A stretch of DNA of 38,542 nucleotides from the IMG/VR virus record IMGVR_UViG_3300042898_001537, positions 1 through 38,542 of that record. The stretch is one strand, 5' to 3'. Of the stretch, positions 10,672 to 38,142 are shown in pieces (the first letter of the stretch is position 1; each line of letters starts with the position of its first letter). This stretch comes from a virus. The notes under the pieces were generated by a model. It was not told the origin of the DNA. It searched no databases and saw only the letters and a program-made list of their open reading frames with translations. A program made the position numbers and the translations under genes.

Positions 10672-11847
10672 ATGGCTACACAGATTCAATTTCGACGGGG
10701 CACTGCTTCTGCATGGACGGCTGCAAATCCAATTCTCGCTGTAGGCGAGATGGGGTTGGAAACTGATACTGGCAAGTTCAAGGTTGGTAACGGTGTAAAC
10801 GTTTGGTCTGCGCTGCCATATTCGTCGGGCCCTCAAGGAACCCAGGGATCAACAGGTCCGCAGGGAACCCAAGGATCAACGGGCCCGCAAGGGCCAACAG
10901 GAACCCAAGGATCTACTGGACCGCAAGGCGTTGTAGGCCCGCAGGGAACTCAAGGCCCCCAAGGTAGTCAAGGTTCTGTTGGAGCAACAGGTTCGCAGGG
11001 TGTAACGGGACCTCAGGGAAGCACGGGTAGTCAAGGTGCCGTAGGTCCCCAAGGCGCTCAGGGCGATGTTGGGCCACAGGGCCTTCAAGGGGATGTAGGC
11101 CCGCTCGGCTATCAAGGTCCGCAAGGTGCGGTTGGCCCTCAAGGTGCCCAAGGAAGTGTTGGACCTCAAGGTCTGCAAGGTGATCCAGGGGCTCAAGGGC
11201 CTCAAGGGTTTGACGGTACACAGGGCTTTACTGGTGCCCAAGGCCCGCAAGGTTCCCAAGGGGTTGCAGGGCCACAAGGTAGTCAAGGCCCTCAAGGGGT
11301 CGTAGGCATGAGCGGTGTTCAAGGTTCGCAAGGAGCGCAAGGTGCAACTGGTAACCCTGGGCCTCTTGGCATTCAAGGCCCTCAAGGGGATAACGGGCCC
11401 CAAGGGCCCCAAGGTCCACAAGGCAGTCAAGGTGCCCAAGGATTTACAGGCCCCCAAGGTAGCCAAGGCTCTCAAGGTTCTCAGGGTGCGGTGGGTTCTC
11501 AAGGCCCTCAAGGTGATGTCGGTTCCCAAGGTGTCGCTGGTCCTCAGGGAGCCGTTGGTTCGCAAGGTGTTGTAGGTCCACAAGGATCTGTAGGTAGCCA
11601 AGGACCACAAGGCGATGTTGGACCGCAAGGTGTTGCAGGCCCTCAAGGATCTCAGGGTGCAGCGTCAACAGTTGCAGGCCCGCAAGGCGCAGTTGGTTCT
11701 CAAGGACCGCAAGGCACATCAGTTACTGGAGCCCAAGGCGCTCAAGGCCCGCAGGGCGCTCAAGGTGTTGCAGGCACTAGCGGTGCAGCAGACATCACTG
11801 TTTCGACCCTTAGTGCAGCAATTTTAATTATGGAGATTGGACCCTGA
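10672..11847 (+). CDS. Collagen-like tail fibre
   Basis: The 391-residue product has an N-terminal module (about 3-45: [37 protein letters not shown]) of the type found at the base of the Bordetella phage major tropism determinant and many phage fibres. About 100 Gly-X-Y triplets follow (residues 53 to about 370), dominated by GPQ, GSQ and GAQ, with two breaks (near GAASTVAG and GTSVTG) close to the end. A short C-terminal segment ends ILIMEIGP. The rod should form a collagen triple helix. Proline in X but hardly ever in Y, with Gln in Y, fits bacterial and phage collagens, which lack hydroxyproline. The DNA repeats at codon level without long exact copies. Confidence 0.9.
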
Positions 11848-25974: not shown

Positions 25975-26333
25975 GTTGTCACTGTTCCATTGACAGCCGT
26001 GTCAAAGTAAGCGTAAATCGACTTGATTTGTCGATCATCAACCCAAGCGACACCGTTCAAACCGTCCGCAACCATTTTGACGTAATTGTCTAGGTCGCCT
26101 CGTAAACCTTTGATCGGTTCGTAATCCAGGTCGGTGACGTGGATGGCGATGTGGTCTAGTGAGAACCGCATTTCAACAGCGACAGGCCCTTCAAACAGTG
26201 GTCCTGCGTATTGGGCTGCAACAGCCTGCTCGGCCAGCAGTGTGCGTTCGGGAGTGAACACACGCCCTCGCCTTGTCATCCTCGGTCGTTGCTTGACCTG
26301 AGGTTTTCCTTCAGCGATAAACGAATAGTTCAC
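25971..26333 (-). CDS. rusA: RusA-family Holliday junction resolvase
   Basis: The 120-residue protein has the normal RusA size and pattern: IAEGKPQVKQRPRMTRRGRV near the N-terminus, a central EGPVAVEMRFS strand, and the metal-binding segment RGDLDNYVKMVADGLNGV (D80, D82) followed by AWVDDRQI (D99, D100). It resolves four-way DNA junctions arising in replication and recombination. GTG 26333 overlaps the primase stop (GTGA). Confidence 0.9.
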   Translation of the reverse strand: MNYSFIAEGKPQVKQRPRMTRRGRVFTPERTLLAEQAVAAQYAGPLFEGPVAVEMRFSLDHIAIHVTDLDYEPIKGLRGDLDNYVKMVADGLNGVAWVDDRQIKSIYAYFDTAVNGTVTT

Positions 26334-27262
26334 TTGTACACCTTGGAGACGATTTTTTCTATTTCGTGGAGGTCGCCACGTTCGATAAATTTTCCCCATC
26401 GTTCATCTGCATTGCAGAGCAACGCCAACGCTTCGTTTGGCGTGAAACCATCGTCGGCTAGATACAACCCCAGCCTGAATAGGAAGCCTGAGCGGTCGGT
26501 GTCTTCAAACGGCCCGTAAGAAAACGCATGATGCGTTCGTTTCGACATGCGATAAATGGACGGTAAATCCCCATCAAGTTCATCGGCAGTGATTGTCAAC
26601 GATTGTGACTGGACTGCTTTGCGTGGCGGTTTCCACAGCGACTGATACTGCTCAAACAGTGCGGGATTGGCACGCTGCTGATGGGCAGTTTCAACAAAGT
26701 CTGCATAACGGATAGGGAAACCATCTTCGCTGACCATGACTCTACGATCAGACATTTCAGAATCGGTTAGAGCATGAGGATAGGGGAGTCGCACATAGTT
26801 CCCCAGTTGACCTTCAGCCATTTCGGACTGTTTCGGATTGATCTCTTTTGTTGAAGCCTTAGCGATTTGTGTAGCCCCAAGCAATGTTTTCCTCATGTGT
26901 TCCGCTCTGGTTGGAGCGGATGTGAACACCCACACATGAAATCCTTTGGAACGTGAACGTTCTACCCAACCCGTGATTCCGAGTTCACCAAGCACAACCC
27001 TCAGGTTTTGGGCTTCAATCCATGCGGTTTCTTCACCTTCATCGAAGTCAACGCAACCCCAGTTGACCTGCCAGAAATCTCCAACATGAACCATCGGGTA
27101 CACACCCATTGGTTCCCCGTCACCTAGATGTTGTTTGATGCGGTCCACATAGTTGACCCACAGCGAGTCGGTGGTTCGTTCGCATCCGCCTTCTTCTGTT
27201 CCGAACGCATCCATGCGTCCGAGGAACAGTTCAGCAAACTGATTGACAGTCTCACTGCTCAT
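26330..27262 (-). CDS. Archaeo-eukaryotic-type (AEP) primase
   Basis: The 310-residue protein shows the AEP active-site pattern: GCVDFDEGEE with D72 and D74 (metal binding), SRSKGFHVWVF with H109 (the S-x-H type motif), and a later basic patch (GNYVRLPYPHAL, about 165-176). A C-terminal helical region (about 250-310) is consistent with a primase-associated domain (GFLFRLGLYLADDGFTPNEA). It would lay primers for the adjacent helicase and the host polymerase. ATG 27262 overlaps the upstream stop by 11 bases. Confidence 0.82.
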   Translation of the reverse strand: MSSETVNQFAELFLGRMDAFGTEEGGCERTTDSLWVNYVDRIKQHLGDGEPMGVYPMVHVGDFWQVNWGCVDFDEGEETAWIEAQNLRVVLGELGITGWVERSRSKGFHVWVFTSAPTRAEHMRKTLLGATQIAKASTKEINPKQSEMAEGQLGNYVRLPYPHALTDSEMSDRRVMVSEDGFPIRYADFVETAHQQRANPALFEQYQSLWKPPRKAVQSQSLTITADELDGDLPSIYRMSKRTHHAFSYGPFEDTDRSGFLFRLGLYLADDGFTPNEALALLCNADERWGKFIERGDLHEIEKIVSKVYK

Positions 27263-27440
27263 GATCCTGTTTCCGATGATGGATGTCGGATTCAATGTCT
27301 TCTAATTCGATCCACAGTTGGCGAATGAATTGGAGTGCAGCGTCTTTGCCGTCAGGAGCGTGAATGTCGAATGCCCTGCCCCACAAGGTTGAGCCTCTGG
27401 TGTCCAGATAGTCTGTGATTGCAGAGTCCATTGCGTTCAT
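27252..27440 (-). CDS. Small protein between helicase and primase
   Basis: This 62-residue acidic helical protein starts at ATG 27440, overlapping the helicase TGA (ATGA). It contains TLWGRAFDIHAPDGKDAALQ and FIRQLWIELEDIESDI. No family was recognised. Its fixed place suggests a replisome accessory factor. Confidence 0.7.
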   Translation of the reverse strand: MNAMDSAITDYLDTRGSTLWGRAFDIHAPDGKDAALQFIRQLWIELEDIESDIHHRKQDHEQ

Positions 27441-32523: not shown

Positions 32524-32559
32524 AGCAATCTCCCTAGTTGGGAGGTTGCGACTGGCGGT

Positions 32560-32631
32560 TGGAGCGGGTGAAGGTAATCGAAACCTCACTGCATGGAGCG
32601 GGTGGAGGGAATCGAACCCTCGCTCGCTCCA
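32560..32631 (-). other. Probable attP: two tandem tRNA 3'-end mimics
   Basis: Read on the minus strand, 32594-32621 is a tRNA T-arm (GAGGG, TTCGATT loop, CCCTC) followed by CACCCGC and TCCA, as in the 3' end of a tRNA with CCA. A second, diverged copy is at 32560-32587 (TTCGATT conserved, stem partly changed), 34 bases away. No 5' half of a tRNA is seen, so neither copy is a functional tRNA. Such 3' ends form the attP core of phages that integrate into tRNA genes. Confidence 0.72.
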
Positions 32632-33484: not shown

Positions 33485-33492
33485 GGTAGGTG
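33485..33492 (-). promoter_or_regulatory. Leader element copy 1 (CACCTACC)
   Basis: Minus-strand CACCTACCACAACAATGGAG stands before the start at 33466. This copy has a longer gap between ACCTACC and GGAG than the standard copies. Confidence 0.65.
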
Positions 33493-33527
33493 AAAGATAG
33501 AAAGCGGGTTGACCCTGTGTCAGCCCG

Positions 33528-33800
33528 TTATGACTTGGCGATCATGTCGATACGAGCCCGACTGAGACCCAGTTCCGCTGCGATCTCCGCCAACGTGAAA
33601 CCCTCCATCCGCAACTGACGGACAGCAGCAACACGAACAGCAGACACATGCGGAATCAACTCAGACTGAATCGAATCCAACAGCCAAGACATAGCCAACG
33701 CCCTCAGCATCGGATCATCCATAGTCGCAATCCAGTCATCGCAAACCTGCTGCAACTGAGCCTGCAACTTCATGTTTGTTACTGAATGAGTTGTTCTCAC
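33528..33800 (-). CDS. Helix-turn-helix DNA-binding protein
   Basis: The 90-residue product has a helical first half and ends with VAAVRQLRMEGFTLAEIAAE followed by LGLSRARIDMIAKS, a clear helix-turn-helix like those in sigma region 4 and small regulators. GTG 33800 overlaps the stop of a 28-residue gene (GTGA), with GAGGAG just upstream. It may regulate the neighbouring lysogeny genes. Confidence 0.78.
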   Translation of the reverse strand: MRTTHSVTNMKLQAQLQQVCDDWIATMDDPMLRALAMSWLLDSIQSELIPHVSAVRVAAVRQLRMEGFTLAEIAAELGLSRARIDMIAKS

Positions 33801-33883
33801 GGGTTCTTCTCCTCATCACGAATACCGAGATACGCGAACAACACTAGGACGGCGATAAGTACCAGACTGAAGATCGGTCCCAT
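33797..33883 (-). CDS. 28-residue membrane microprotein
   Basis: ATG 33883 to TGA at 33797. The product is one membrane helix (IFSLVLIAVLVLFAYLGI, about 4-21) with a charged end (RDEEKNP). The stop overlaps the GTG of the HTH gene, and the start lies four bases after the stop of the 26-residue gene. The three look like one coupled unit. Confidence 0.6.
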   Translation of the reverse strand: MGPIFSLVLIAVLVLFAYLGIRDEEKNP

Positions 33884-33887
33884 AATG

Positions 33888-33968
33888 TCACGCCCACTTC
33901 GATAGCCAGTAAAGCACCACGCAAACCACTGGTGCGATGAACAGCATTGTCAATCCGTTGATAACCAT
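33888..33968 (-). CDS. 26-residue membrane microprotein
   Basis: ATG 33968 to TGA at 33888, preceded by GGAGAGAAATACA and, further up, by the leader element at 33988-33995. The product is MVINGLTML plus a hydrophobic helix (FIAPVVCVVLYWL) and SKWA. A longer GTG start at 34033 is in frame but would translate the leader element. Leader and ribosome site support translation. Confidence 0.6.
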   Translation of the reverse strand: MVINGLTMLFIAPVVCVVLYWLSKWA

Positions 33969-33987
33969 TGTATTTCTCTCCATTTTT

Positions 33988-33995
33988 GGTAGGTG
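33988..33995 (-). promoter_or_regulatory. Leader element copy 2 (CACCTACC)
   Basis: CACCTACCAAAAATGGAG on the minus strand, before the 26-residue membrane gene. Together with the copy at 34035 it is separated by 47 bases. Confidence 0.65.
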
Positions 33996-34034
33996 TTTGT
34001 TTGTGTTGCGATAGAATGTGTGTTGCTTCACTTT

Positions 34035-34042
34035 GGTAGGTG
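34035..34042 (-). promoter_or_regulatory. Leader element copy 3 (CACCTACC)
   Basis: TCACCTACCAAAGTGAAG on the minus strand. There is no GGAG here, and a GTG follows three bases later. It may be a decayed copy that lost its gene. Confidence 0.6.
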
Positions 34043-34050
34043 AGCAACCG

Positions 34051-34080
34051 AACGGATCGGGCTTCACGGCCCGGTCCGTT
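34051..34080 (-). terminator. 12-bp hairpin after the zinc-ribbon gene
   Basis: AACGGATCGGGC (34051-34062) pairs with GCCCGGTCCGTT (34069-34080) around TTCACG, with one T-G pair. It lies 28 bases past the stop of the last gene in the 36233-34109 operon. There is no T-run, so termination is inferred from place and stability. Confidence 0.6.
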
Positions 34081-34108
34081 CACTATTTACGGCTAGGGCC
34101 TGGGATCG

Positions 34109-34453
34109 TTATGCGGTCAGCCAGTATTCGGGATCGTCAGTGAACTGATACCACTCAGGCTTCACGCATTCCTCATGCAAATACAGTTCACCCAATTCAG
34201 GATGATCCACATGACAATCCTCATCAAACGGAATGTCCCGATCACACCCGTCGCATTCTCTGGTGTATTCGGTGTACAAACAGTCGGGACACATCCAACC
34301 ATCAACGTTCACAGTGATCTTCTTACTGCTGCATGACGATTCAATAGTCCACTCAGTATCGGCGCCCATGCGGTTCACGAACCGTCCGCTACCCATCCCA
34401 GTGTCTTCACCGCAACTGACGCAGTGATCTCCAATGTTGATCTCAATAGTCAT
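34109..34453 (-). CDS. Zinc-ribbon protein
   Basis: This 114-residue acidic protein has three or more Cys pairs: CVSCGED (about 12-18), CPDC (about 55-58) and CDGC (about 67-70), plus HVDHPELGELYLHEEC. It probably folds around zinc ions. ATG 34453 overlaps the upstream stop (ATGA), with TGGAGG 10 bases upstream. It could bind nucleic acid or a host protein; the role is unknown. Confidence 0.75.
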   Translation of the reverse strand: MTIEINIGDHCVSCGEDTGMGSGRFVNRMGADTEWTIESSCSSKKITVNVDGWMCPDCLYTEYTRECDGCDRDIPFDEDCHVDHPELGELYLHEECVKPEWYQFTDDPEYWLTA

Positions 34454-34647
34454 GACTCGTCCAACCTCCACTTATTCAGTGCTGCACGCGTCATCGTGTC
34501 CAAATAATCCAGACCATCAACATCCAAATAAATGCTGGACATCGGATCGTTGTCGTCGTCATCAAACTCACGGAACGTCAGTAGCCATCGCTCGTCTCCG
34601 TCACGTTCCAGACGTGGAATCATTTCATCGCTAAAAAAAGTTGTCAT
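34450..34647 (-). CDS. Small acidic protein
   Basis: This 65-residue protein starts at ATG 34647 overlapping the upstream TGA. It contains an acidic stretch (REFDDDDNDPMSSIYLDVDG) and a C-terminal helix (YLDTMTRAALNKWRLDES). Acidic small early proteins often mimic DNA, but no evidence beyond charge exists here. Confidence 0.72.
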   Translation of the reverse strand: MTTFFSDEMIPRLERDGDERWLLTFREFDDDDNDPMSSIYLDVDGLDYLDTMTRAALNKWRLDES

Positions 34648-34934
34648 AGCAAACCTCCCGCATTGGGAATGGCATACGTTCGTTCGATGCCATTTTCATC
34701 AAAGACAATCGAAAGGTCTTGCACAAACTCGGTCCCAGTCCACACTGCCCACACATGGGCACGATCACTCGGCTCGTCAGGATCAAACCTGATGACTGTC
34801 GTACGAAGACCTGATTGTGCGTCTTTCAGTTTTCCGACTGGCTTGCAAACTGTTGTCCAGTCGGGGCTTCCGTCATGCCAGATCAACCGATAGTTGTACT
34901 TGAATGCTTGTGGTGCGCTGTTGCCATAACTCAT
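34644..34934 (-). CDS. Hypothetical early protein
   Basis: This 96-residue beta-rich protein contains YNYRLIWHDGSPDWTTVCKP and HVWAVWTGTEFVQDLSIVFD. ATG 34934 follows the standard leader CACCTACCAACAGGAG with seven bases to the start. The upstream gene ends as ATGA at this start, so the leader lies inside that gene's last codons. The function is unknown. Confidence 0.73.
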   Translation of the reverse strand: MSYGNSAPQAFKYNYRLIWHDGSPDWTTVCKPVGKLKDAQSGLRTTVIRFDPDEPSDRAHVWAVWTGTEFVQDLSIVFDENGIERTYAIPNAGGLL

Positions 34935-35161
34935 CGTTCTGCTCCTGTTGGTAGGTGATTGTTCCCATATAAAAGGGTTTTGGTAACGGTGTGATGGAAC
35001 TCACTGTTCCGCATTTCCAACAACAAATCATTTGCCATCGCAATCTTGTTGTGCCAACAATCATCCGTTGCTTCCCAGTCGGACAGTTCACACTCGCAAG
35101 GCTGATCTTCCATTACGGATAGCAGAAGGTTTCTGGCGTCCCGTAGGTTCGTATTCATCAT
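34931..35161 (-). CDS. Small hypothetical protein
   Basis: This 76-residue protein starts at ATG 35161 or 35158, overlapping the upstream stop. It is helical with two cysteines close together (PCECELSDW). Its last codons read HLPTGAER through the leader element of the next gene, so the end of the protein is fixed by the regulatory sequence rather than by protein function. Confidence 0.65.
   Translation of the reverse strand: MMNTNLRDARNLLLSVMEDQPCECELSDWEATDDCWHNKIAMANDLLLEMRNSEFHHTVTKTLLYGNNHLPTGAER
34942..34957 (-). promoter_or_regulatory. Leader element copy 4 (standard 16-mer)
   Basis: CACCTACCAACAGGAG on the minus strand, seven bases before ATG 34934. It is identical to copies 5 and 6. 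It lies within the end of the upstream coding frame. Confidence 0.85.
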
Positions 35162-35700
35162 GCCGTCACCATCGCTAGGTTCTGAACTGCTTCCCAGTCG
35201 TGATTAACGTTCCAGTCGAATAGCCCAACTACACGATCGTCCTGCTTGTAGGGGGTCTCAATAACAAGTAGCCCACTAATTGTCAGGACATAGACCCACT
35301 CGGTCCAGTTGTCGGGGTCTGGCATGAACCAGTCCTCGCTGCCTGACTGACCATCCTTAGTCGTGTAGGCGATGCCGTAGTTCGGCACGTTGGCGAATCG
35401 ACCATCGGCATAACTACCCCGCTGACCACTGTCACCAGAGAACTGACTGGCAAGGTATTCGGGAGTTCCGTACTTGGCATCTCTGTTTGGAGTCACGCCA
35501 GCAATGTCAGGTTGTTCGGCATACAGATAACTCCACCCGTAGTGCTGCTGAGTCAGAACGTCGATAACTGTTTCCAGTCGGTCACGCTGAACCATTGCAA
35601 ACAGTTCACGCCCCATGTGTGTCGGGTAGCCATCGCTGTGGACGTACCGACCTCGCCACACATCCCCGTAAGGGGTGGCAACTACCGAACGCGTACTCAT
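35158..35700 (-). CDS. Hypothetical protein of actinobacterial type
   Basis: The 180-residue product begins MSTRSVVATPYGDVWRGRYV and continues HSDGYPTHMGRELFAMVQRD and LTQQHYGWSYL, a pattern like a family of uncharacterised proteins in Streptomyces-type genomes and their mobile elements. It has a beta-rich C-terminal half (WVYVLTISGLLVIETPYKQD). ATG 35700 overlaps the preceding stop (ATGA). Confidence 0.75.
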   Translation of the reverse strand: MSTRSVVATPYGDVWRGRYVHSDGYPTHMGRELFAMVQRDRLETVIDVLTQQHYGWSYLYAEQPDIAGVTPNRDAKYGTPEYLASQFSGDSGQRGSYADGRFANVPNYGIAYTTKDGQSGSEDWFMPDPDNWTEWVYVLTISGLLVIETPYKQDDRVVGLFDWNVNHDWEAVQNLAMVTA

Positions 35701-36233
35701 ACCATCACCTCTGATGCGTTCACCCGATAGGCAATCGTCGTCCATCCTCGCAACTTCACGAGTAATCCGTCATGGCTACCGCCAACACACTGGAACACGC
35801 TGGATCGTTCCGTCATCCGAAACGTCTTGGTGTCAATGCCAACGAACTCGCCATTGAACGTCACAACATCTCCAACCTTCGGACGTTTCTTCGGTTCGTA
35901 GCAGTAAGTCTGATTCCACCATTCCAGCGAATACCCCTCACGCTTACGGGGGTGACGTGCTAACGCCTCACCAACTTTGCGGGGGATTGCGTAGTAGCAA
36001 GGTGCGACTGTTTCGTCCATGATCTTGTACGTCCACTCCGAACGTCCACGGGCGTAGAGAACACACAACGCATACGCCCCATCCTCATCGGGAGCGTCAA
36101 TCGCTGCCCACCAGATCGAACGACCCGACTCTTTCGTCGTGCCACTGGCGAGAATTGTTATTCCATGCATTTCTTCCCGCATCCACCGATCCACTGTCAG
36201 ACCAGTACGCGGTGCCATTCCTGTTGTACCCAT
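35697..36233 (-). CDS. DUF6927-like early protein
   Basis: This 178-residue protein starts at ATG 36233 after the standard leader CACCTACCAACAGGAG. It has SIWWAAIDAPDEDGAYALCV, then YKIMDETVAPCYYAIPRKVG, which resembles a family (DUF6927) found near antirestriction genes in Actinobacteria. The C-terminal part includes RPKVGDVVTFNGEF. It is the first gene after the promoter at 36297-36325 and probably one of the first products made. The family name is by eye. Confidence 0.65.
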   Translation of the reverse strand: MGTTGMAPRTGLTVDRWMREEMHGITILASGTTKESGRSIWWAAIDAPDEDGAYALCVLYARGRSEWTYKIMDETVAPCYYAIPRKVGEALARHPRKREGYSLEWWNQTYCYEPKKRPKVGDVVTFNGEFVGIDTKTFRMTERSSVFQCVGGSHDGLLVKLRGWTTIAYRVNASEVMV

Positions 36234-36240
36234 TGTCTTG

Positions 36241-36256
36241 CTCCTGTTGGTAGGTG
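36241..36256 (-). promoter_or_regulatory. Leader element copy 5 (standard 16-mer)
   Basis: CACCTACCAACAGGAG on the minus strand, seven bases before ATG 36233. It lies about 41 bases downstream of the -10 box at 36297-36302, so it is in the transcribed leader. Confidence 0.85.
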
Positions 36257-36296
36257 TTGGGAGCGGGCCACGATGGCACGATCCCGATTAGTTGTA

Positions 36297-36325
36297 ACTG
36301 TAACAGAATCCACTAGCGTTGTCAA
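36297..36325 (-). promoter_or_regulatory. Early promoter with flanking operator
   Basis: On the minus strand TTGACA (36320-36325) and TACAGT (36297-36302) are 17 bases apart, a good sigma-70 match. CACTAG (36311-36316) and CTAGTG (36330-36335) form an inverted repeat around the -35 box, as expected for a repressor site. It drives the operon 36233 to 34109. Confidence 0.75.
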
Positions 36326-36339
36326 GTGTCTAGTGACAG

Positions 36340-36663
36340 TTATTCGGAAATTGTTGTCAGAACCTCAGTCTGTTCGATAGCGAACACTGTGAACCCTCGG
36401 CGTGGCTTACCCGAAACAGTCTCGGAACCATCCTCACGTTTCGTAATCGTCGGCAACAAACACGATGTCCCACGCTCGCCCTGTCGGACTATGCGGCCCG
36501 CGTTCTTCCATTGCACGAACGTCGCAAACTCGCCGCTAGTGAACCCTCGTTCGTTCATCATCTCAATCAACCGTGACGCGTTGCCCTTCAGGAACTCGCG
36601 CCCCGTTGTCGGGTTGTGTGGCCATTGCACTGTTCTCGGATCAACAACTATCTCAATACTCAT
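36340..36663 (-). CDS. ArdC-N-like antirestriction domain protein
   Basis: The 107-residue product matches the N-terminal, DNA-binding domain of ArdC-type proteins: WPHNPTTGREFLKGNASRLI, MMNERGFTSGEFATFVQWKN, then AGRIVRQGERGTSCLLP. The metallopeptidase-like C-terminal domain of full ArdC is absent. ArdC proteins protect incoming DNA against host restriction. ATG 36663 is chosen over 36669, since it stands seven bases from AGGAG of the standard leader. Confidence 0.78.
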   Translation of the reverse strand: MSIEIVVDPRTVQWPHNPTTGREFLKGNASRLIEMMNERGFTSGEFATFVQWKNAGRIVRQGERGTSCLLPTITKREDGSETVSGKPRRGFTVFAIEQTEVLTTISE

Positions 36664-36670
36664 TCTCATA

Positions 36671-36686
36671 CTCCTGTTGGTAGGTG
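36671..36686 (-). promoter_or_regulatory. Leader element copy 6 (standard 16-mer)
   Basis: CACCTACCAACAGGAG on the minus strand, seven bases before ATG 36663 of the ArdC-N-like gene. It lies in a 53-base gap after the upstream stop. Confidence 0.85.
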
Positions 36687-36716
36687 AATCTGATTAGTAG
36701 GACCTGTCCACACTTG

Positions 36717-36917
36717 TCAGTCAGTTACAAACTCGAAACCCATCTCCGACACATGATCCATGAAGGAATCCCTGGCCTCGTCCTCGTCGTATCCGTAGAA
36801 CGTCCGAGACTCATAAAAGTGCTGCCCATGGTCATCAACTAGGGCGGAGACAACTAGCGCACCCGAATGGCGCACAACTTCCACCCCAAGCGACTCTTGG
36901 ACCTGTGGCGTCGTCAT
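36717..36917 (-). CDS. Small hypothetical protein
   Basis: This 66-residue acidic protein starts at ATG 36917, overlapping the upstream TGA (ATGA). A beta hairpin (VEVVRHSGALVVSALVDDHG) is followed by an acidic helix (YDEDEARDSFMDHVSEMG). No family was recognised. Confidence 0.7.
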   Translation of the reverse strand: MTTPQVQESLGVEVVRHSGALVVSALVDDHGQHFYESRTFYGYDEDEARDSFMDHVSEMGFEFVTD

Positions 36918-37123
36918 CGGTCCACTACTCCTTGCTTCACAAGATCAGACATCCGCATACGCAACACATCAACCGACACGCCCGACATCTCCGACACCTC
37001 CGACAACGTGACCGAACGATCGGCGCGCATTGCCTCGTGAATTAGGTAGTAGGTCTTCCACTTCTCCACCGCACCGCACGCCCATGCCTCGCACGCCTCA
37101 CGGATCTTCGCTCTACTGTTCAT
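36914..37123 (-). CDS. Winged-helix-like DNA-binding protein
   Basis: This 69-residue protein has a helical first half and a helix-turn-helix near its end (SVTLSEVSEMSGVSVDVLRM, RMSDLVKQGVVDR), the latter like a winged helix. ATG 37123 follows leader copy 7 (CACCTACCAAACAGGAG). It may regulate early transcription. Confidence 0.73.
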   Translation of the reverse strand: MNSRAKIREACEAWACGAVEKWKTYYLIHEAMRADRSVTLSEVSEMSGVSVDVLRMRMSDLVKQGVVDR

Positions 37124-37130
37124 TGTCTTG

Positions 37131-37147
37131 CTCCTGTTTGGTAGGTG
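37131..37147 (-). promoter_or_regulatory. Leader element copy 7
   Basis: CACCTACCAAACAGGAG on the minus strand, one base longer than the standard 16-mer, seven bases before ATG 37123. It sits in a 31-base gap between genes, too short for a separate promoter. Confidence 0.82.
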
Positions 37148-37154
37148 AATCGCT

Positions 37155-37373
37155 CTAGCGGTAGTGCCAGTAATCGGAATCGGAAGGGATACGGCTTTCG
37201 GCGTCATCGGAATGACTGGCCCAAAGTGCCCCCAACTCGTTCGACAGTTCGGCGTACTCCTTCCAATCGCGCTCAGTGACGCAACGCTCAAGCCGACGCA
37301 ACATTTCCCGCGTGTACGTCATGTCCCTACGCATCGTCCCAATCGTGAAGGATGTTTCGTTGTTTCTGCCCAT
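37155..37373 (-). CDS. Small helical protein
   Basis: This 72-residue protein begins MGRNNETSFTIGTMRRDMTY, then a long helix (REMLRRLERCVTERDWKEYA, ELSNELGALW) and an acidic end. ATG 37373 follows leader copy 8. No family was recognised. A longer in-frame extension to 37478 crosses the leader and was rejected. Confidence 0.68.
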   Translation of the reverse strand: MGRNNETSFTIGTMRRDMTYTREMLRRLERCVTERDWKEYAELSNELGALWASHSDDAESRIPSDSDYWHYR

Positions 37374-37381
37374 CGTCTGCA

Positions 37382-37397
37382 CTCCTTGTGGTAGGTG
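37382..37397 (-). promoter_or_regulatory. Leader element copy 8
   Basis: CACCTACCACAAGGAG on the minus strand, eight bases before ATG 37373. Same length as the standard element, with two differences in the middle. Confidence 0.8.
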
Positions 37398-37422
37398 AAT
37401 CGGTACCCAATCGGCACCACAC

Positions 37423-37439
37423 AACACGCCGCGCGTGTT
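37423..37439. promoter_or_regulatory. 7-bp perfect inverted repeat
   Basis: AACACGC (37423-37429) and GCGTGTT (37433-37439) are separated by three bases, between the hairpin after ardA and the next gene. It could be an operator. No clear promoter was found near it. Confidence 0.45.
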
Positions 37440-37462
37440 CTGCGCTACTGACTGGGGGAGTA

Positions 37463-37491
37463 TCGGACCGGGCCGCACTGGCCCGGTCCGA
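37463..37491 (-). terminator. 12-bp perfect hairpin after ardA
   Basis: TCGGACCGGGCC (37463-37474) and GGCCCGGTCCGA (37480-37491) enclose GCACT, 8 bases past the ardA stop on the minus strand. It is very stable and lacks a T-run. It likely separates ardA from the next genes. Confidence 0.7.
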
Positions 37492-37499
37492 CTGTCGTC

Positions 37500-38078
37500 C
37501 TAGTGGTTGTAGAACACGAACCCATCCACCTCAGACAGATCACCACCTAGAACAAGGTCACGGGCGAATGCTTCCGTGTCGATGTAATAGCGGAGACTCT
37601 CGGGAACCTCAGCAAGTAGCCCCGACTCCTCTAAATAGTTCTCCGCGTACTCCGTGACAGTTGCGTAGCCTGTGTACCGTTCCTGCGCTTGTTCGATCAG
37701 TTCCGCCACGTTGTCAGCGGTGACAGTCTCGCCAACATTGCCAAGATACGCGGCGAACATTTCGGGATCGTCTACCGATTCCCACGCCGTCGCCACCTCG
37801 GCAAACTGGGAGGGCGAACACTCACCCGAAAGAACAGACGAGGGGAGTCCATCGTGATCCATCACCCAGAACTCATCAGACCCGCAACGCGGGCAGAACT
37901 CGGCAGGGTTTCCGCTGTCATAAGCACCCGAACGGGCCAGACCTGCGCCGACAAGATCGGCGCACTCGTCAGCCTCTAGCCATTTGCCGACAAGTGCGCC
38001 GCCGTTGTAGCACCCGAGACAACCGACCCACGCTCTCGGGGTTTCGGTTTCCGTTGTTGTCGCCGTTGCTGTTTCCAT
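37500..38078 (-). CDS. ardA: ArdA antirestriction protein
   Basis: The 192-residue product is an ArdA: RAWVGCLGCYNGGALVGKWL at the N-terminus and the hallmark C-terminal part LLAEVPESLRYYIDTEAFAR, DLVLGGDLSEVDGFVF. ArdA mimics B-form DNA and blocks type I restriction and modification enzymes; its acidic composition fits. Cys20, Cys23, Cys62 and Cys65 are paired (C-x2-C ... C-x2-C), suggesting a zinc site. It is the first early gene, after the promoter at 38114-38142 and leader copy 9. Confidence 0.9.
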   Translation of the reverse strand: METATATTTETETPRAWVGCLGCYNGGALVGKWLEADECADLVGAGLARSGAYDSGNPAEFCPRCGSDEFWVMDHDGLPSSVLSGECSPSQFAEVATAWESVDDPEMFAAYLGNVGETVTADNVAELIEQAQERYTGYATVTEYAENYLEESGLLAEVPESLRYYIDTEAFARDLVLGGDLSEVDGFVFYNH

Positions 38079-38087
38079 TGTCTGTTT

Positions 38088-38103
38088 CTCCTGTTGGTAG
38101 GTT
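38088..38103 (-). promoter_or_regulatory. Leader element copy 9
   Basis: AACCTACCAACAGGAG on the minus strand (first base differs from standard), nine bases before ardA ATG 38078. Confidence 0.8.
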
Positions 38104-38113
38104 GCTAGGGATG

Positions 38114-38142
38114 ACAATAACGGAACCCCGAAGAGTTGTCAA
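38114..38142 (-). promoter_or_regulatory. ardA promoter
   Basis: On the minus strand TTGACA (38137-38142) and TATTGT (38114-38119) are 17 bases apart, a good sigma-70 promoter. It shares CTTGACAAC with the promoter at 36297. The plus strand also reads TTGTCA here, so weak divergent firing is possible. Confidence 0.75.

Follow-up and report, generated by a model that had tools for sequence, protein, structure and literature searches.

In a cluster of anti-restriction and other small genes of an uncultured, podovirus-like phage, known from IMG/VR virus record IMGVR_UViG_3300042898_001537, a short repeated element marks the cistron that opens each translational unit. The whole record of 38,542 nucleotides (nt) was analysed and is called the window below. 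The element is built on the heptamer ACCTACC, keeps its sequence and orientation from copy to copy, is restricted to the cluster and coincides with boundaries of gene exchange between related genomes. Judged from these sequence patterns, it is probably a 5′-leader element for translation initiation in an anti-restriction gene array, the slots of which double as exchange boundaries.

All nine ACCTACC copies listed by the original prediction are present on the minus strand at 33485–38102 (Table 1), with 0 copies on the plus strand, and at least nine were reached in 0 of 100 dinucleotide shuffles (expectation 2.3 ± 1.4, both strands together). Every listed copy exists, but the coordinates mixed two kinds of start: that of the heptamer for 33485, 33988 and 34035, and that of a longer match for 34942, 36241, 36671, 37131, 37382 and 38088. 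The three identical 16-mers that had been described are exact copies of CACCTACCAACAGGAG at 34942, 36241 and 36671, and near copies lie at 38088 (one mismatch) and 37382 (two mismatches). Six copies come with a ribosome site, as predicted, in the form of a Shine–Dalgarno (SD) sequence AGGAG 7–9 nt before an ATG; in two further copies a GGAG precedes an ATG by 6 and 9 nt, and the copy at 34035 has only GTGAAG, without an ATG at normal distance. Also correct were the placement of one copy (37140) in a 31-nt gap and of another (34950) within upstream codons. In unbiased 7-mer counts, CCTACCA/ACCTACC ranked first upstream of SD-bearing starts in the window and TCACCTA/CCTACCA/ACCTACC ranked first among start-associated 7-mers in a related genome (L024), so the motif was not seen merely because it was looked for.

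Pattern and protein searches revealed the cluster in two other distinct genomes, L024 (with L034, contig 3300042304_000524) and L033 (with L006, contig 3300042396_000644); L016 comes from another sample and matches L024 without differences across the shared 4,011 nt. The element is neither absent from these relatives nor detached from their gene starts: each carries 10 copies, all at starts and on one strand only, with 0 on the other. Overall, the three genomes hold 29 copies in 20 distinct contexts. Aligning copies with the ACCTACC heptamer as search key, we found flanking conservation of C at −1 (19/20), T at −2 (17/20) and A at +1 (19/20), which gives the consensus TCACCTACCA, followed by 1–7 nt and then by an SD usually 6–9 nt before the start. 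ACCTACC itself is unchanged in 29/29 copies, with variable SD site, spacing and flanks. At orthologous slots the heptamer shows 0/56 differences per genome pair, and the 30 nt upstream of it show 23/240, 58/240 and 47/240 by pair (10–24%). We found no decayed copies, in that no cluster gene start has a one-mismatch copy ahead of its SD; the only one-mismatch matches before an SD are far upstream of the first gene and in the integrase leader. The latter, at about 32525–32546 (−), reads ACCTCCCAACTAGGGAG before the ATG, one mismatch from the element core, and could be a chance match or a relic. Separately, about 120 nt at 33935–34054 (−) are identical in the three genomes, including a stretch without an ordinary start codon; within them lie two elements, spaced 47 nt apart, and the beginning of the gene for a 26-amino-acid (aa) hydrophobic protein.

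The early region has no DNA match to known phages. The nearest terminase, at 46% identity, belongs to the circular 42-kb genome MW202803.1 (L201, Manatee Spring podovirus), whose replication and packaging gene complement is similar; its top-ranked start-associated 7-mers do not include the repeat. As a general phage motif the element was rejected: TCACCTACCAAGGAG with a start occurred in 13 IMG/VR stretches versus 10 for a scrambled control. Two unrelated phage-like contigs carry comparable leaders, one (L145, 3300041403_001141) with five start-associated ACCTACC in leaders of the ACCTACC..GGAG type and the other (G006, 3300044247_000057) with TACCAAGGAG at six starts; because viral contigs at large show no enrichment of the motif, these may be convergent.

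Within the cluster, almost every independently started gene carries an element leader. The element lies 22–26 nt before the start of 26 genes across the three genomes, and 22 of them start at least 31 nt past the preceding stop codon or open the cluster; all 18 genes without it start from 4 nt before to 4 nt after the previous stop (Fisher test of element against gap, 1.4 × 10−8 over three non-independent genomes and 0.0014 for the window alone). Starts of the latter genes are mostly fixed by ATGA/GTGA overlaps. For example, the element is missing from a 172-aa gene (M(N)DLEQYV...) in L024 (2544–3062), where the gene comes second in its unit, but stands directly ahead of the gene in L033, where the gene leads its unit, which shows that the element goes with position rather than with the gene. 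Outside the cluster, none of nine replication-region genes examined has the element upstream.

We also compared where homology between the genomes begins and ends. Blocks of at least 100 bp end 10–40 nt after an element start in 3/4 cases for the window and L024, 4/5 for the window and L033, and 4/5 for L024 and L033 (circular-shift p 0.002–0.01). Most breaks fall near the start codon, with slots retained and reading frames swapped; the genes between homology blocks are unrelated, and no homology is detectable among the swapped frames. Beyond a break, homology picks up again at or past a stop codon, at a hairpin or at a coupled start, with no fixed distance to an element. In the main anti-restriction module, ArdA in the window is replaced in both relatives by a gene that is probably Ocr-like, judging by matches to phrog_2568 ('ocr-like', E 3e-6 and 4e-6) and an acidic product (pI ~4.1), with Pfam ocr below cutoff and a predicted structure that was unusable (pLDDT 42). 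This gene occupies the first slot in L033 and the second in L024, behind a 61-aa gene in the first. One L033 copy (616, early-region coordinates) is a hybrid, its left flank being that of L024 slot 438 and its right side the gene of slot 761, a pattern that would be expected from recombination between two element-bearing leaders. The break positions favour the earlier suggestion of homology for swapping gene cassettes, and suggest either that slots are also used as homology or that only exchanges preserving a working leader survive. Integron-like cassettes, an idea raised by the hairpins after some genes, were set aside: the stems differ and no attachment-site consensus was noticed, though no formal test was made.

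The orientation of the element, its place before the SD, the copy within codons, its absence at coupled genes and its invariance together point to an mRNA leader in translation initiation. The unit-start rule and the copy inside codons likewise favour the shared translational control site put forward by the original prediction, an interpretation that is partly supported overall. We infer that in mRNA the element would give each unit an autonomous start, would present a site read on all units together by a shared phage or host factor, or both; the marked units would form an early, leftward cluster of anti-restriction and putative host-takeover genes. Because the same leader stands at every slot, reading frames could be exchanged behind it without losing expression signals, and the relatives would differ through exchanges with one end at or near an element, where the slots may provide the homology. 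A stronger version, which we consider possible though doubtful, is a phage-specific translational regulon in which one trans-acting factor reads ACCUACC in every anti-restriction or host-takeover leader and switches the units together, making a plug-and-play array whose tag predicts anti-defence genes. The factor could be a host factor or, for example, the conserved helix-turn-helix (HTH) protein of 33528–33800, which is a candidate regulator by position only.

Several observations weigh against a leader element in translation initiation. Only three distinct genomes are available and they are closely related, so pairwise tests are not independent; four element genes overlap or abut the preceding gene; the start codons were picked by the analyst with the element in view; and the copy at 34035 has no ordinary start behind it. 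Complementarity to 16S rRNA beyond the anti-SD, put forward for checking with the original prediction, did not hold up, as 37% of shuffled elements equalled or beat the best duplex with E. coli 16S. With 16S pairing at shuffle level and SD pairing (below) barely above it, no specific biochemical mechanism is supported.

It is unlikely, in our assessment, that the short homology of the slots is kept mainly for homologous or relaxed recombination that spreads cassettes, with any effect on translation secondary. The exit of homology just past the elements, the absence of detectable homology between swapped frames and the element-to-element hybrid are all consistent with such a role, and the PD-(D/E)XK nuclease of the phage could belong to a recombination system. 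However, 7–10 invariant bases make too short a run of homology, what is shared usually being the longer upstream slot, and the points at which homology resumes are not tied to an element by any fixed distance. Recombination alone also leaves unexplained why the element is invariant where both of its flanks differ, and why the genes without it are exactly the coupled ones.

A site acting in transcription, either as the first transcribed bases of numerous small promoters or as an operator for a phage DNA-binding protein, seems quite improbable. The first slot is its best case: in all three genomes the first copy starts 9–11 nt after a −10-like hexamer that is 17 nt from TTGACA, which would place the element almost at the very start of the early mRNA. 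A weaker promoter candidate lies at slot 761 of L024, and copy 5 of the window has a good predicted promoter 41 nt ahead of it. An operator would also fit the presence of HTH genes in the cluster and the recurrence of an asymmetric repeat in small gaps, as in cluster A stoperators. Elsewhere, promoter-like matches in the cluster are at the shuffled level (5 versus 4.3 ± 2.0), and copies directly after hairpins or within coding sequence leave no room for a promoter, which argues that most copies are internal leaders. An early promoter with −35 and −10 boxes at fixed distance from each copy was convincing only at the first slot of each genome. The claim that the copies are not separate promoters stands for most of them, but the first lies 11 nt after a sigma70-like −10. 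An operator, moreover, would need neither a near-fixed place before the SD nor avoidance of coupled genes. The hairpin at 34050–34081 is possibly a terminator; its stem sequence is replaced in L024 and L033 with pairing kept, that is, with covariation.

Very improbable is weak masking of the SD in cis by an anti-SD-like sequence (CCU with AGG, CCA with UGG, UCAC with GUGA), with basal translation held low until a factor opens it: a 3–4-bp element–SD hairpin is possible in nearly every natural leader (paired test against shuffled elements, p = 0.006) and ATCACCT is present at the 16S 3′ end too, but the hairpin is weak (−0.8 to −2.5 kcal/mol), the gain in pairing is slight (3.1 pairs against an expected 2.8), the copies are non-independent, several hypotheses were tried and SD accessibility in a 90-nt context is the same as in shuffles.

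Table 1. Element copies, genes and predicted signals of the marked cluster, in window coordinates
Feature	Position	Strand	Remarks
Element copy 1	38096–38102	−	Before ardA-like gene; 11 nt after predicted −10
Element copy 2	37390–37396	−	Before 72-aa gene
Element copy 3	37140–37146	−	31-nt gap before winged-HTH gene
Element copy 4	36679–36685	−	Before ArdC-N domain gene
Element copy 5	36249–36255	−	Before 178-aa gene
Element copy 6	34950–34956	−	Within last codons of upstream gene (34931–35158), before 96-aa gene
Element copy 7	34035–34041	−	Directly after strong hairpin; GTGAAG in place of SD
Element copy 8	33988–33994	−	Before gene for 26-aa hydrophobic protein
Element copy 9	33485–33491	−	Before 74-aa gene
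Predicted sigma70-type promoter TTGACA-17-TATTGT	38114–38142	−	Consensus match only; equivalent in both relatives
Predicted sigma70-type promoter TTGACA-17-TACAGT	36297–36325	−	41 nt before copy 5; consensus match only
GC-rich hairpin	37464–37490	−	Directly after ardA-like gene, upstream side of slot 2
Hairpin	34050–34081	−	Ends 8 nt before copy 7
ardA-like antirestriction gene	37500–38078	−	Ocr-like gene is the corresponding anti-restriction module in relatives
Winged-HTH gene	36914–37123	−	HTH_24 match, slightly below curated cutoff
ArdC N-terminal domain gene	36340–36663	−	
Two coupled genes, no assigned function	35158–36233 (35697–36233, 35158–35700)	−	Other genes in their place in relatives
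Three coupled genes, no assigned function	34109–34934 (34644–34934, 34450–34647, 34109–34453)	−	Replaced in relatives
HTH gene	33528–33800	−	Retained in all three genomes, 89/90 residues identical in each

The window encodes an SU10/P22-type portal, an SU10-type capsid, a DnaB-like helicase, a TOTE-type primase, a PD-(D/E)XK nuclease and a tyrosine integrase, and the phage is probably temperate. The marked cluster is transcribed leftward, upstream of the integrase, and contains ArdA, an ArdC N-terminal domain protein, HTH proteins and small genes of no assigned function; PADLOC gave zero hits. Beside the integrase gene, at 32559–32624 (−), a tRNA-Gly 3′ half occurs twice in tandem, as a likely attP, with one copy only in L033. 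An exact 30-mer from the first of these copies was matched in the tRNA-Gly(CCC) gene of just two searched genomes, both metagenome-assembled genomes (MAGs) titled Gammaproteobacteria/Klebsiella. This MAG family yielded no related prophage, its only matches being 26–29% identities to 469–495-aa frames resembling host DnaB, and shows no start-associated use of the motif; the host was not assigned from this attP-like sequence. Elsewhere in the window, a structural-region protein at 10672–11847 (+) has long collagen-like GPQG repeats, and the primase at 26330–27295 (−) has a match to the AEP domain found in TOTE conflict systems.

Phages have been known to carry start-associated repeats since 2011, but no function has been assigned to these. 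Our comparison separates two previously mixed questions, in that the repeat tracks position (the first cistron) rather than gene, and its slots coincide with gene-exchange boundaries. The element resembles a standard start module behind which host-takeover genes can be exchanged, and as it marks uncharacterised genes beside ArdA, ArdC-N and Ocr-like genes, it nominates these as testable anti-defence candidates.

Several known systems share some of these features. Cluster A stoperators are repressor-bound asymmetric sites in short gaps, which the element appears not to resemble in its tight placement before the SD and its avoidance of coupled genes. The boundary sequences of mosaic junctions, as cited in PMC3029335, are likewise short conserved sequences between genes, and homology between our genomes mostly ends after elements, although its resumption is not fixed to them; compared with the sequences as cited there, the element is repeated within one genome, nearly fixed before the SD and found at unit starts only. 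In archaeal viruses (SIRV2 and others; PMC11065993), a conserved early-gene regulatory sequence that served to find anti-defence genes also marks small variable early genes, known anti-defence genes among them, but is a promoter (TATA box, BRE) with flanks, whereas most copies here have no promoter. EGeRS1/2 of the pLS20 family (PMC8708921) similarly repeat one conserved upstream sequence before variable clustered anti-restriction (ardC) and establishment operons, and in our phages the element stands before the ArdA, ArdC-N and Ocr-like genes; however, EGeRS1 comprises regions of 400–750 bp and EGeRS2 promoters with Reg operators, in contrast to ~10 bp beside the SD here.

The likeness claimed by the original prediction was to the start-associated sequences (SAS) of cluster K mycobacteriophages (PMC3203893), which, with those of Microbacterium cluster EF (PMC7302621), have a proposed but untested role in translation initiation; a survey from 2025, covering 188 cluster K phages, still regards SAS as in need of verification (PMC12699233). 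Like SAS, the element is a conserved asymmetric repeat found at the start codons of genes from different families, and as in cluster K it has a single orientation and lies in the non-structural part of the genome. The prediction was also right that the sequence differs: cluster K SAS is GGGATAGGAGCCC, with the SD included, 3–7 nt before the start (PMC3203893), and is not matched here within two mismatches, the element being TCACCTACCA-N(1–7)-AGGAG or a variant SD. Start association is common to both, but the invariant heptamer here lies upstream of the SD and ends 2–8 nt before it. About half of cluster K SAS sites have linked 17-bp inverted repeats (ESAS; PMC3203893), whereas our upstream flanks have no common inverted repeat and the GC-rich hairpins at some slots differ in sequence. 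The window phage, podovirus-like with an SU10-type portal, is unrelated to the SAS phages, and the unit-start rule and exchange boundaries seen for its element further set it against SAS. Given the differences in consensus and in relation to the SD, we regard the element as the same kind of sequence as SAS but not as a member of the cluster K family.

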